DNA of 64,000 nt. Source: Gammaproteobacteria bacterium. Its GTDB lineage: Bacteria; Pseudomonadota; Gammaproteobacteria; JAJPIJ01. Below are positions 10,507 to 26,407 of the stretch, piece after piece. The notes below the pieces were generated by a model. It searched no databases. It saw nothing but the letters and a program-made list of their open reading frames with translations, and was not told the origin of the DNA. The translations under genes and the position numbers were made by a program. The DNA lies in NCBI GenBank assembly GCA_022071965.1, contig JAJVIQ010000007.1, forward strand, positions 124,001 to 188,000. The letters run 5' to 3'. Numbering within the stretch: position 1 is the first letter of the stretch; the number at the start of each line of letters is the position of its first letter.

Positions 10507-13353
10507 CTACCTTCCGCTGCCCTTCTTGTCGGTATCCTGTTTCTGATTCAGCACCGTGGCGAGCTCCTCGAGCAGGTAGAGGTCGTGCAGCTGCGTGCGC
10601 ACCTTCGCCTCGCGCGCCTTGCGTTTGATCCGCTCACTCTGCGAAGTGCGTGAGCGTCCACGCTTGTTCGCCGCCACGGCCTGCTGCTCCTGCTCGGAGA
10701 TCCAGTCGGACAGCTCCTTTTCGAGCTGACTGCGTAACTGCTCCTGCTGCTCGTAGGTCTGCTCCATCATGCGCTCGTTGGCGGCGCGCGCCTGTTCCAG
10801 GCGCTCCTCGATCCGAACCGCGTCGCGCAGGCGCTCCGCGGCCGCCGCCGCCTCGGCCTTGACCGTCTGGATGTCCATCTTGATCTGATCGACCGCGACA
10901 TTCGTCGTGCCGAGATCGCGCTGCCGGCTCTGCAGGTCATTGAGGTGCTGTTGTACGGTGCGCTGCAGATTCTCGGCCTCCTCGCGCGCCCGCCGTGCCT
11001 CCTCCATCTCCGCTCTGAGCTTGCGGCGCTCATCCTCGAGTTTGCCGAGTTCCTCCTGCAAACGGTTCTGCTCGATGATGCGCGCCTGTTCGTGGGCGTG
11101 GCGATATTCGGCGATAATCTCCTCGGCCTCCTGTGCAGCGGCGCGACGTGCCGCCTCTGCCGCCGCCTTTTCACGTTGAACCAGCTCGAGCATCGCGGTG
11201 TTGCGCAGGAACTCGGTCTCGATCTTCTTGCGCTCCTCCGCGAGGCGTGCCTCGGCCTCCTCGCGCAACTTGCGCTCCTGCTCCTGCTGCCGCATCAGTT
11301 GAGCCTGTGTCGCCTCGAGGCGTTGACGCGCATCCTCCTCGAGCCGCCGCCTTTCCTCCGCGAGGCGTGCCTCGGCCTCCTCGCGCAAGTGACGCTCGTG
11401 GTCCTGCTTGCGTGACAACTCGGCGTGAGCGGCCTCGAGCTGCTTGCGGGCCTCGGCCTCGATACGCGTCTTTTCCTTCAAGAGTTTTGCCTCCGACTCC
11501 TCGCGCAATCGCTTCTCCTGTTCGTGCTGCTGCAACAGCTGCGCCTGGACGAGCTCCAGCTGGGCGCGCGCCGCACGGTCCAGCTTCTGTCGGTCCGCGG
11601 CCAGGCTCGCCTCGGCCTCCGCCTTCATTGCCTGGATGCGTTCCAGTTCCTCGGCATTTCGGCGATACAATTCCTCGAGCCGCTTCTTCTCCGCCTGCAA
11701 TCGCGCATCGGCCTCGGCCTTGATGCGCTGCAGTTGCTCTTCCTGCTCCCGCCGCTGGCGCGCGGCCTCCAGCTCCGCCGCGCGCTTCTGCTCCTCGATT
11801 TCGTGCTTGAGCCGGCGCGCCTCCTCCAGAAAATCCGTGGCTTTGCGGGCCTCCGAATCCAGCTTCTCGCGCTCGCGGCGCAGCCGCTGCTCGATCTCCT
11901 TCTCGGCGGCGCGGCGCGCGGCCTCCGCCTCGGCATTCAATCGCTGACGCTCGGCCTGGAGGCGCTCCTCGATCGCCTTCTCCGCCTGCCGTACGAGCTG
12001 CTGGCGTTCTGCCAGCAGGCGGTCCTGCAGCGCCCGCTCCGCCGACTTTTTCGCGGCCTCCGCCTCGGCCTGCAGACGCTTGGCCTCTTCCAGCGCGAGT
12101 GCCGCGCGCGCAAGTTCGGCCTTGAGCACGGAGGCACGCACCTCGGCCTCGGTCGGATCGGCGACCGGATTTGGCAATTCCGACAGGGGCGCGGTCGGCG
12201 CGGATTCTGCCTCCACGCTTGCGGCGTCGGTCGTCGCCCTCTGCTTCGGCTTGGCCGCGCCGCCCTTGCCGCCTGCCTTGCCGATAGCCGGCGCCGGTGC
12301 GATGTACCGGAAATAGCCGCCCTCGAGGTAGCTCGCCTCGAATCCGCGCTCCGTCAGTACGAACGCGGCCACCGAACTGCGGCTGCCTGTGTCGCAGTAG
12401 GCGATGTAGTGCTTGTCGTGATCGAGCTTGGCGGCCTGCGCACGCAGCATGCTCAACGGGACATTCATGCTCCCGGGTATGGAACCGGCGGCGTGCTCGT
12501 CGCGGAATCGCACGTCGAGCCAGATGGCACCCGACCTCGCGACCTGGTCGCAGCCTTGTTCATAGCTCACGGTGCTGATCAGCGGATTCTTGATGAGATT
12601 GACGAAATCGTCCTTCGTCAACCGCAGCAATGTGCCGGTGCTGAGCATCCGCACCGTGGCGTTGCGGCGGGAGTCCGACACCAGCGCCTCCTCGCCGAAG
12701 CTCTCCCCGACGCCGAGTTCCGCGAGCTTGATCTCCTGCCCGCTGCTGGTGTTGCGCAGCACCTCGCAGCGGCCTTCGCGGATGAGGTAGTAGTAATCGC
12801 CGGCGTCGCCCTGTTTGACGACGACGTCGCCCTTCTTGTACGACACCGCCTCCATGGTCGAAAGCAGCTTGGAGATGTTCGAGGCGGGAACCCGCGCGAA
12901 GAGCTCCGACTGCAGGAGACTGCCGACCCAGTCCGCGTCCGCGCCTTCGATGACTTCGACTTCGATGCCGGATTTGTCGTCATACGCGCCGCCCTCGCCC
13001 CCAAGGCTGAGCAGCTTGTCCAGGAGCAGGCGATTGATGCGCAGCACGGTTATCGCCGTGGTGGCGCGCGCCGACATCTGGCGCGGCTGCAGCTGAGCGA
13101 CCGGGAAGAAGGCCTGGCCGGTGCCGCCATCGAGCTTTTTTATGAGCTGGTCGCTGGCGACCAGCTCGAGCGTGCCTTCCAGGAGATAGTAGGTGTAGTT
13201 GTCGCGGCTGCCCTGGTGAAATACGTAGTCGCGCTTGCGGAAGGTGAGGATCTCGCCGTCCCTGATGATCTGGTCCTGCAAGGCCGGGGCGAGGCCGTTG
13301 ATCGGCACCAGCAGGCGCACCAGTTCTTGGAAATCGTGGTCCTGTTTGTTCAT
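10507..13353 (-). CDS. Multidomain protein: two cyclic-nucleotide-binding domains, rhodanese domain, long coiled coil
   Basis: A 948-residue protein of unknown function. Residues 1-140 form a CNB-like domain with a degenerate phosphate-binding cassette. Residues 145-265 are a second CNB domain with a good cassette, GESFGEEALVSDSRRNATV (Glu221/222, Arg229/230). Residues 268-350 are a rhodanese domain: WLDVRFRDEHAAGSIPGSMN and the active loop CDTGSRSS with Cys320. A Pro/Ala linker (355-405) leads to about 470 residues of Arg/Glu/Ala/Gln-rich coiled coil, then a basic tail near residues 890-920. No signal peptide, membrane segment or DNA-binding motif is seen, so it is probably a cytoplasmic scaffold. 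It lies downstream of a DUF465-type gene on the same strand and converges with panC. Confidence 0.85.
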   Translation of the reverse strand: MNKQDHDFQELVRLLVPINGLAPALQDQIIRDGEILTFRKRDYVFHQGSRDNYTYYLLEGTLELVASDQLIKKLDGGTGQAFFPVAQLQPRQMSARATTAITVLRINRLLLDKLLSLGGEGGAYDDKSGIEVEVIEGADADWVGSLLQSELFARVPASNISKLLSTMEAVSYKKGDVVVKQGDAGDYYYLIREGRCEVLRNTSSGQEIKLAELGVGESFGEEALVSDSRRNATVRMLSTGTLLRLTKDDFVNLIKNPLISTVSYEQGCDQVARSGAIWLDVRFRDEHAAGSIPGSMNVPLSMLRAQAAKLDHDKHYIAYCDTGSRSSVAAFVLTERGFEASYLEGGYFRYIAPAPAIGKAGGKGGAAKPKQRATTDAASVEAESAPTAPLSELPNPVADPTEAEVRASVLKAELARAALALEEAKRLQAEAEAAKKSAERALQDRLLAERQQLVRQAEKAIEERLQAERQRLNAEAEAARRAAEKEIEQRLRREREKLDSEARKATDFLEEARRLKHEIEEQKRAAELEAARQRREQEEQLQRIKAEADARLQAEKKRLEELYRRNAEELERIQAMKAEAEASLAADRQKLDRAARAQLELVQAQLLQQHEQEKRLREESEAKLLKEKTRIEAEARKQLEAAHAELSRKQDHERHLREEAEARLAEERRRLEEDARQRLEATQAQLMRQQEQERKLREEAEARLAEERKKIETEFLRNTAMLELVQREKAAAEAARRAAAQEAEEIIAEYRHAHEQARIIEQNRLQEELGKLEDERRKLRAEMEEARRAREEAENLQRTVQQHLNDLQSRQRDLGTTNVAVDQIKMDIQTVKAEAAAAAERLRDAVRIEERLEQARAANERMMEQTYEQQEQLRSQLEKELSDWISEQEQQAVAANKRGRSRTSQSERIKRKAREAKVRTQLHDLYLLEELATVLNQKQDTDKKGSGR
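11200..11559 (-). repeat. Three tandem 120-bp (40-residue) repeats in the coiled coil
   Basis: Residues 599-638, 639-678 and 679-718 are three in-register 40-residue units with the shared core LREE(A/S)EA(R/K)L and a preceding Q/H-E-(Q/H)-E run. At DNA level, the stretches near 11235-11268 and 11355-11388 are nearly identical and exactly 120 bp apart; a third, more diverged copy lies 120 bp further on. This indicates growth by internal duplication. Confidence 0.85.
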
Positions 13354-13413
13354 TCTTGTCTTTCGCGCGGGCCGCCTTGGTCACCCGCAACCGGGCGAAT
13401 ACGCCCCTGCTGT

Positions 13414-13620
13414 TCAAGCGTCCAGGTCAGGAATGAGCTGGCTCCGCAGTCGTGCGATCTGATCCTTCAGCAGCAGCTTTCTTTTCTTAAGGCGCGTCAG
13501 CTGCAGTTGGTCCACACCCGGGTCGGCGGCGAGCCGCCGGACGATCTCGTCCAGATCGCGGTGCTCCACTTCGAGCTCGAGAATCCACTTCTGGATCGAT
13601 TTTGGCTTTTCCTCGCTCAT
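13414..13620 (-). CDS. DUF465 (YdcH-like) small helical protein
   Basis: A 68-residue, highly charged helical protein. It resembles the DUF465/YdcH family: an N-terminal helix with EHRDLDEIVRRL and a second helix, LTRLKKRKLLLKDQIARL, forming a hairpin. Members are small cytoplasmic proteins of unknown function. It lies 60 bp upstream of the CNB-rhodanese gene and 73 bp downstream of hemC on the same strand. The pairing of a helical-hairpin protein with a long coiled coil is suggestive but unproven. Confidence 0.8.
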   Translation of the reverse strand: MSEEKPKSIQKWILELEVEHRDLDEIVRRLAADPGVDQLQLTRLKKRKLLLKDQIARLRSQLIPDLDA

Positions 13621-13693
13621 ATCGAATTCAGCACACGTGGCCCCTCCACCGAAGGGTCGTCCGCGCTGGCGGGTGCCCGTTCAAGCCCATGAA

Positions 13694-25793: not shown

Positions 25794-25832
25794 CCTGCAC
25801 GGGCCGGAGAGGCCCGTGCGGGTTGAGTTTTG
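25794..25832 (+). terminator. Intrinsic terminator after the His/Tyr-rich gene
   Basis: CCTGCACGGGCC and GGCCCGTGCGGG form a 12-bp stem (one G-T pair) around the loop GGAGA, followed by TTGAGTTTT. It lies 16 bp past the stop codon and ahead of the next gene, whose longer possible N-terminus would begin inside it. Confidence 0.75.
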
Positions 25833-25882
25833 CTGACTCCGCGGCTATTGTTTTCGCCCGGTTCGCAGGGCGACAGGGTACG

Positions 25883-26407
25883 ATGACCGCGACGCAGCTG
25901 CAGCTGCTTCAGGCGATGCCGATCTTCGGCGGCATCAATGAGGATGTGCTGAGCTACCTGCTCAGGTTCACCCATGTCGTCGCGCAGCCCTCCGGCGCCT
26001 ACTTCTTCCGCGAGAATGATCCTGGTGACTCGATGTTCGTGCTGGAGCGGGGAGAGGTCGACATCGTCAAGGGGTGGAAGGATCGCATGTACTTTCTCCG
26101 CAAGATCGGGATCGGCGACTGCTTCGGCATACTCACCCTTCTCGATCTCGGACCGCGCAGCGGGTCGGCGATCGCGCGCCAGGACTGCACCGCCATCGAG
26201 ATCTCGACGACGAACATGTACGAGATCTACAGGATGGATCGCAAGCAATACACCATTATGCTGATGAACCTGGCCAGGGAGGTCAGCCGGCGCCTCAGGG
26301 GCTCCGACACCCAGTTGTTCAGGACTCTCGTCGATCCCGTGGACGCCGGCAGGCATTGGATGGCCGGCGACCTATACGACTTCCCGGCGATCGAGACTCC
26401 GACCTGA
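25883..26407 (+). CDS. Stand-alone cyclic-nucleotide-binding domain protein
   Basis: A 174-residue protein starting at ATG 25883; an in-frame ATG at 25823 falls inside the terminator hairpin. It is a single CNB beta-barrel: LLQAMPIFGGINEDVLSYLL, GAYFFRENDPGDSMFVLERGEVDI, GDCFGILTLLDLGPRSGSAIA. The cassette keeps Pro-Arg-Ser but has FGIL where cyclic-AMP binders have FGE, so the ribose-binding Glu is missing. A helix follows, and there is no HTH, kinase or other output domain. Function unknown. Confidence 0.82.
   Translation: MTATQLQLLQAMPIFGGINEDVLSYLLRFTHVVAQPSGAYFFRENDPGDSMFVLERGEVDIVKGWKDRMYFLRKIGIGDCFGILTLLDLGPRSGSAIARQDCTAIEISTTNMYEIYRMDRKQYTIMLMNLAREVSRRLRGSDTQLFRTLVDPVDAGRHWMAGDLYDFPAIETPT

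Follow-up and report, generated by a model that had tools for sequence, protein, structure and literature searches.

A gammaproteobacterial protein with two cyclic-nucleotide-binding domains, a rhodanese domain and a long helical rod, and the widespread family to which it belongs

The locus and the domains of the encoded protein

The window, a stretch of 64,000 nucleotides from the genome of a gammaproteobacterium, carries on its minus strand a main ORF at 10507-13353, which has an ATG start and encodes a protein of 948 aa with two cyclic-nucleotide-binding (CNB) domains, a rhodanese domain and a long helical rod. The features detected at the locus are listed below.

10507..13353, minus strand: protein of 948 aa with the order CNB-CNB-rhodanese-coiled coil, a "type A" member of the soluble long clade
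13414..13620, minus strand: DUF465 (YdcH/SlyX-like) gene, 68 aa, PF04325, with LIPDLDA at its C-terminus; 60 nt separate it from the main gene that follows and 73 nt from hemC that precedes it, all on the same strand; unlisted, and missed by the earlier note
13018..13248, minus strand: CNB1, about residues 36-112, with a degenerate cassette (genome scan match at 13009-13245, AlphaFold2 fold, motif)
12589..12846, minus strand: CNB2, residues 170-255, with the intact phosphate-binding cassette FGEEALVSDSRRNATV (genome scan match at 12586-12846, Pfam match, conservation)
12304..12531, minus strand: rhodanese domain, residues 275-350, beginning directly after the last CNB2 helix (Pfam, fold)
12394..12396, minus strand: Cys320, the catalytic-loop cysteine of CDTGSRS, a C-x4-R loop (kept in 98/109 cores)
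10744..12156, minus strand: helical/coiled-coil rod, about residues 400-870, with an estimated length of roughly 70 nm if it is one continuous helix (composition, periodicity)
11234..11537, minus strand: tandem repeat of 120 bp (40 residues), 2.5 copies, within the coil; missed by the earlier note
11050..11235, minus strand: conserved coil block, about residues 707-768, ER.kLE.EF.RN...LE...EK.AAEAAR.AA.EA..IIaEY, common to type A and type B (alignment of relatives)
10546..10716, minus strand: conserved C-terminal tail motif, about residues 880-936, W..EQ ... RIK.+A..A ... LL.ElA..L (conservation)

The Pfam search of the 948-aa protein detected cNMP_binding in two stretches (E 9.5e-33, best at 170-255; PF00027, 112.5 bits against a curated cut-off of 27.5) and one rhodanese domain (275-350, E 5.9e-15; PF00581, 56 bits against a cut-off of 22.2), and nothing beyond these; a CRP/FNR-type C-terminal helix-turn-helix DNA-binding domain was absent from the Pfam matches, as were a kinase domain and the pseudosubstrate/docking-dimerisation region of PKA-R and PKG. 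The two CNB domains were matched separately in the genome-wide scan, with 38.2 bits for CNB1 and 84.2 bits for CNB2. The ribose-contacting Glu and the phosphate-contacting Arg of the cassette are both present in CNB2 (FGEEAL...RRNAT; Glu221, Arg230), while CNB1 on its own lacks the Glu and keeps the Arg (Arg91). The catalytic Cys of the rhodanese domain lies in a six-residue loop, CDTGSR, whose C-x4-R spacing is that of sulfurtransferases, the loop of Cdc25 phosphatases being C-x5-R. An AlphaFold2 model of residues 1-361, based on an alignment of eight sequences, contained two CNB-type folds and a rhodanese fold with a mean pLDDT of 74, but its pTM of 0.40 means that the domain arrangement is not predicted, so that domain contacts and gating are without structural support. 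Among solved structures, the core matched the tandem CNBs of PKG/PKA-R and rhodanese domains, including those of CoA-disulfide/persulfide reductases.

Residues 400-930 contain no proline at all, consist of A/E/R/Q/L to 74% and have hydrophobic positions that recur with a period of about 3.5-3.6 residues (z 4.6 and 6.9 relative to shuffled sequences), a signal that the globular part, taken as control, does not give. The tail of the 948-aa protein holds no membrane segment, the best 19-residue Kyte-Doolittle mean being 0.82. The domain layout of the earlier note is borne out by these data: Pfam, the genome scan and AlphaFold2 agree on two CNB folds of which the second alone has an intact cassette, the CNB1 Glu being lost; the rhodanese domain with its Cys320 loop is recovered by Pfam (275-350), by the CDTGSRS loop and by the modelled fold; the coil of about 470 residues that follows is proline-free with a helical hydrophobic periodicity; DNA-binding, membrane and kinase parts were not found by Pfam or, in the tail, as a hydrophobic segment; and the numbering of Cys320, Glu221 and Arg230 is correct.

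A chance or annotation artefact was rejected: an overlapping ORF at 11425-13692 (+) gives no indication of being a genuine gene, whereas the minus-strand ORF has the domains, the homologues and the top coding call. A plasmid-borne gene was also rejected, the plasmid collection giving no match. Promoter and terminator scans gave nothing above chance. Elsewhere in the window, an ORF at 25823-26407 (+) has a single CNB domain as its only Pfam match and overlaps the start of a UvrD-type helicase frame.

Distribution, architectures and residue conservation of the family

A total of 369 genomes of the class were searched with a 46-sequence profile (E<=1e-30), and the CNB-CNB-rhodanese core of about 350 aa was found in 171 of them (~46%). 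The rarity implied by the earlier note was thus wrong, and a unique fusion or misassembly was rejected because the architecture is widespread and recurrent in the family searches. A search with the core gave at least a domain match in 53 of the 56 relatives and full-core matches in many of them; the named relatives, Steroidobacter, Solimonas and Thiotrichaceae, identify the class as Gammaproteobacteria. Outside the class, seven phylum-level genomes matched, all of them weakly. A stand-alone core was also observed at L057:5980-7059, on a contig labelled as a Nitrospira MAG; it resembles gammaproteobacterial sequences closely, which points to either horizontal transfer or mis-binning.

Substantial variation in length was observed: among the best-ranked 149 matches listed, 81 are shorter than 480 aa and 65 have at least 650 aa, 38 of the latter exceeding 1200 aa. 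The stand-alone form of about 355 aa makes up 52 of the 111 family members collected, and the rods of other members reach more than 1000 residues. The source genome harbors six members or partial members, among which are a second long member of 1046 aa on contig C23 and a 353-aa stand-alone member beside aroE, and it has 25 CNB matches in all.

The tree of the 109 cores placed most long forms in one large group. Within the tree, 25 soluble long forms, including the window protein, and one 575-aa protein of the source genome form a clade with a support of 97, and the window protein belongs to a six-member clade, referred to here as type A, with a support of 99. The rod block and the C-terminal motif are common to the soluble relatives of the window protein. 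A second long group carries a membrane segment at the end and, in many cases, an FGE-sulfatase (PF03781) domain C-terminal to it, with lengths of up to 1984 aa. Giants of 1322-1984 aa with the order CNB-CNB-rhodanese, long coil, membrane segment and C-terminal FGE-sulfatase (SUMF1-type) domain were observed at L072, L073, L074, L076, L150-L153, L156 and L158, an architecture that is unusual in its own right. A 575-aa relative in the source genome (G000:C2:170097-171083; L021:4561-6288) has two CNBs, a rhodanese-like part below Pfam detection, a Cys to Ser replacement and a long branch, and is apparently a degenerate member.

No characterised protein or paper with the CNB-CNB-rhodanese architecture was found in the open-access literature, and NCBIfam contains no single family for the whole architecture, the family libraries offering single-domain models only; both are consistent with the earlier note, which knew of no characterised protein with this order. 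The component domains are ordinary, yet their combination appears to be uncharacterised in the open-access literature and the large family is apparently unstudied; the wider family is of more interest than the single window protein.

In its layout, a head, a long helical rod poor in proline and a tail, the window protein resembles bacterial intermediate-filament-like proteins. It might accordingly belong to a cytoskeleton in which the rod polymerises, as in crescentin and the Ccrp proteins of H. pylori, and the CNB and rhodanese heads merely tune assembly. Besides the layout, the conserved tail motif and rod blocks, the pairing of long paralogues and the rods of more than 1000 residues would agree with such a cytoskeleton, and coiled-coil proteins of this kind are described as forming filaments in other bacteria (PMC10873595, PMC2776988). 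However, short members without a rod are no less common, which means that the core function of the family cannot lie in forming filaments, and the likeness to crescentin is one of layout, coiled coils resembling each other by composition. We therefore consider a cytoskeletal role unlikely.

The earlier note had staked its sensory idea on whether relatives keep Cys320 and the cassette residues. The phylogeny and alignment of the 109 cores revealed that they are kept: Cys320 in 98 cores, Glu221 together with Arg230 in 103, and all three in 93. In the soluble long clade, Cys320 was found in 24/25, Glu221 in 25/25 and Arg230 in 23/25. In some members Cys320 is replaced by S, G or F, from which it follows that sulfur chemistry is not essential for every member; the residue losses cluster in subgroups such as the L080/L084 branch and in the CNB+rhodanese-like L019/L020 of the source genome. 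The FGE motif of CNB1 is replaced family-wide and Pro90-Arg91 in LAQLQPRQ is kept in all 25 members of the soluble clade, which indicates that CNB1 is a conserved non-canonical copy and not a decaying one. A degenerate, non-binding CNB domain among working ones has a precedent in PKG (PMC4412288).

The same counts bear on the idea that the rhodanese fold is purely structural, an inert interaction module without sulfur chemistry in a scaffold controlled by cyclic nucleotides. Rhodanese folds without the catalytic Cys are used for binding elsewhere, for example in TBC1D23 (PMC7274447), and Cys320 has been lost in several subgroups. Nevertheless, such high retention of Cys320, both in the soluble clade and overall, together with a largely intact C-x4-R loop, is unexpected for an inert module, and we give this explanation a low probability.

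Gene neighbours and co-occurrence across genomes

The 68-aa neighbour scored 56 bits with PF04325 against a cut-off of 25, and each of the six type-A genomes has such a 68-aa DUF465 gene, with LIPDLDA at its end, immediately upstream of type A and in the same orientation. Searching with a DUF465 profile revealed a seventh instance in G069 (L188), where the gene precedes another long core protein. In the other genomes inspected, DUF465 had varied neighbours; a role as dedicated partner everywhere was rejected because the single DUF465 gene has other neighbours in most genomes, the type-A link alone being consistent. With the genes in the order hemC, DUF465, type A and spaced by 73 and 60 nt, co-transcription is possible. 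A functional link to hemC was rejected, however, as the two genes are adjacent in the window only and hemC of G002 and G003 lies elsewhere on the same contig. An apparent gene loss in the sister genome G001 carries no information, since the assembly of G001 lacks the entire region, hemC included.

A long paralogue from a different sub-branch, designated type B, adjoins type A in five of the six type-A genomes, in tandem in two genomes of the taxonomic family of the window (G002, G003) and divergently in three genomes of two other families (G094, G215, G123). Since the sub-branches split before these taxonomic families, the adjacency of types A and B has outlasted a rearrangement. The type-B-like paralogue of the source genome is not adjacent, being located on contig C23. 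In G011 and G142, too, two long genes lie side by side, one of the two being very divergent.

A YajQ (DUF520) neighbourhood is not conserved in the source genome, where YajQ lies on contig C8, and was rejected. Among the relatives, YajQ adjoins soluble long CNB-rhodanese genes at L140, L142, L144 and L155, and a pair of a MoxR-type ATPase and VWA_CoxE occurs nearby at L140-L142 and L155. By eye only, a compact Cas9-like ORF of 1016 aa with Cas1/Cas2-like ORFs beside it was noticed near a CNB-rhodanese-coil gene (L143:356-4626, -), and two Hsp70/DnaK-like ORFs in succession just upstream of a CNB-rhodanese-coil gene that is split between frames (L070:1298-5958, +).

Class III cyclases (PF00211) were detected in 153 of the 171 family-positive genomes (89%) against 78 of the 198 family-negative genomes (39%), an odds ratio of 13. 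With one genome per taxonomic family, the figures were 66/73 and 37/83 (OR 11.7, p 1e-9); the association may be partly due to genome size or lineage, the odds ratios being without control for genome size. The source genome has five cyclase matches, and a cyclic-nucleotide ligand can thus be made there.

The dissimilatory sulfite reductase gene dsrA was present in 86/171 family-positive and 32/198 family-negative genomes, and with one genome per family in 40/73 against 15/83 (OR 5.5, p 2e-6, with lineage and genome size not fully controlled). This enrichment would suit a sensor of sulfur or redox state that is linked to sulfur-oxidation physiology and takes one input through the rhodanese Cys and a second through the CNBs. 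Yet half of the family-positive genomes are without dsrA, which had no match in the source genome or in G001-G003 of its taxonomic family, and SoxB had no match in the source genome either. Sulfur oxidation was consequently rejected as the physiological role in the source genome, and the sensor explanation seems quite improbable.

A possible cyclic-nucleotide-gated rhodanese and its comparison with known systems

On the basis of the architecture, conservation, clade structure, gene adjacency and cyclase co-occurrence observed here, we tentatively favor a rhodanese core that is gated by a cyclic nucleotide and borne by a rod of several subunits, and put the chances of this reading somewhat below even. 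CNB2 would bind a cyclic nucleotide, most likely cAMP, and the movement of its last helix would be passed directly to the rhodanese, where it might alter the access to, or the partners of, the persulfide-forming Cys320 and thereby sulfur transfer. CNB1, having lost the ribose-binding glutamate, may be a copy used for regulation or docking, similar to the degenerate CNBs of PKG. Other CNB proteins attach their output domain right after the last CNB helix. As the core alone is common to all members and also exists alone, and as the rhodanese follows directly after the CNB2 helix, a cyclic-nucleotide-controlled rhodanese is the simplest reading, and the existence of stand-alone cores of about 355 aa makes the coupling of CNB to rhodanese the common denominator of the family.

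In the window protein, the soluble helical rod that would carry this head has a conserved tail at its C-terminal end. Pairing of the rod is expected, either between copies of itself or with the adjacent type-B paralogue, as well as with the DUF465 helical protein, and the resulting assembly would be a multi-headed cytoplasmic scaffold in which the rod multiplies and positions the heads. A coil forming a single stable alpha-helix or lever instead of a multimeric coiled coil, as the very high E/R/A content, the few hydrophobics and the periodicity peak at 3.6 rather than 3.5 could suggest, is very improbable given the significant signal at 3.5-3.67, the conserved rod blocks, the paired genes and the peak at 3.5 (z 8.9) of the membrane-anchored L072. 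As far as sequence comparison can tell, the earlier proposal of a sensory core on a filament or scaffold would stand in part: in its nucleotide/persulfide core, which the conservation data uphold, and in its scaffold, which would fit the coil, the adjacent long paralogue and DUF465; its implied rarity falls.

To our knowledge, few effectors of cyclic nucleotides are known from bacteria, most of them regulators of the CRP type. The core occurs in about 46% of the sampled genomes, nearly always with class III cyclases, and its predicted output resembles a sulfurtransferase; if cyclic nucleotides do gate sulfur transfer or a rod-like scaffold, this would be a new target for class III cyclases. 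More broadly, the family could be an undescribed large class of gammaproteobacterial cyclic-nucleotide effectors whose rhodanese carries persulfide and is gated by the nucleotide itself, with the heads of the window clade on heteromeric rods of type A, type B and DUF465 and a sister group membrane-anchored to an FGE-sulfatase-type domain, a wider proposal that we regard as possible but doubtful.

Tandem CNB folds are shared with PKG and the PKA regulatory subunit, which gave the best Foldseek matches (E ~1e-19) and the best PDB sequence matches. The window protein differs from them in that its output is a rhodanese and not a kinase, in an identity of ~20% with a relative domain placement that is not reliably predicted, and in having no inhibitor sequence or dimerisation/docking domain by Pfam. 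The nearest solved rhodanese folds are those of CoA-disulfide/persulfide reductases and TSTD1 (identity ~30%, rmsd ~2 A); however, these are fused to flavoprotein reductases or stand alone, without CNB control. The head-rod-tail coiled-coil layout is shared with crescentin and the Ccrp cytoskeletal proteins as a works-like comparison only, and we know of no description of these proteins with CNB or rhodanese heads. Family 2B encapsulins likewise join a cNMP-binding domain with sulfur enzymes, having a cysteine desulfurase cargo, rhodaneses enriched in the cysteine-desulfurase operons and sometimes paired paralogues (PMC8346489). Nevertheless, they are HK97-fold shell proteins, whereas the window protein has no HK97 domain and matches the family 2B encapsulin model of NCBIfam at model positions 86-184 of 450, the CNB part only, with 40 bits against a cut-off of 400.

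A further comparison is with the stand-alone proteins of about 355 aa, such as those of Steroidobacter agaridevorans (L059) and Solimonas soli (L061), which have the same core, domain order, cassette Glu/Arg and rhodanese motif and are homologues over the whole core, but are without the rod and the C-terminal tail motif. No characterised member was found among such stand-alone proteins in the open-access literature. Since these 355-aa versions occur in cultured species, the family is directly testable.
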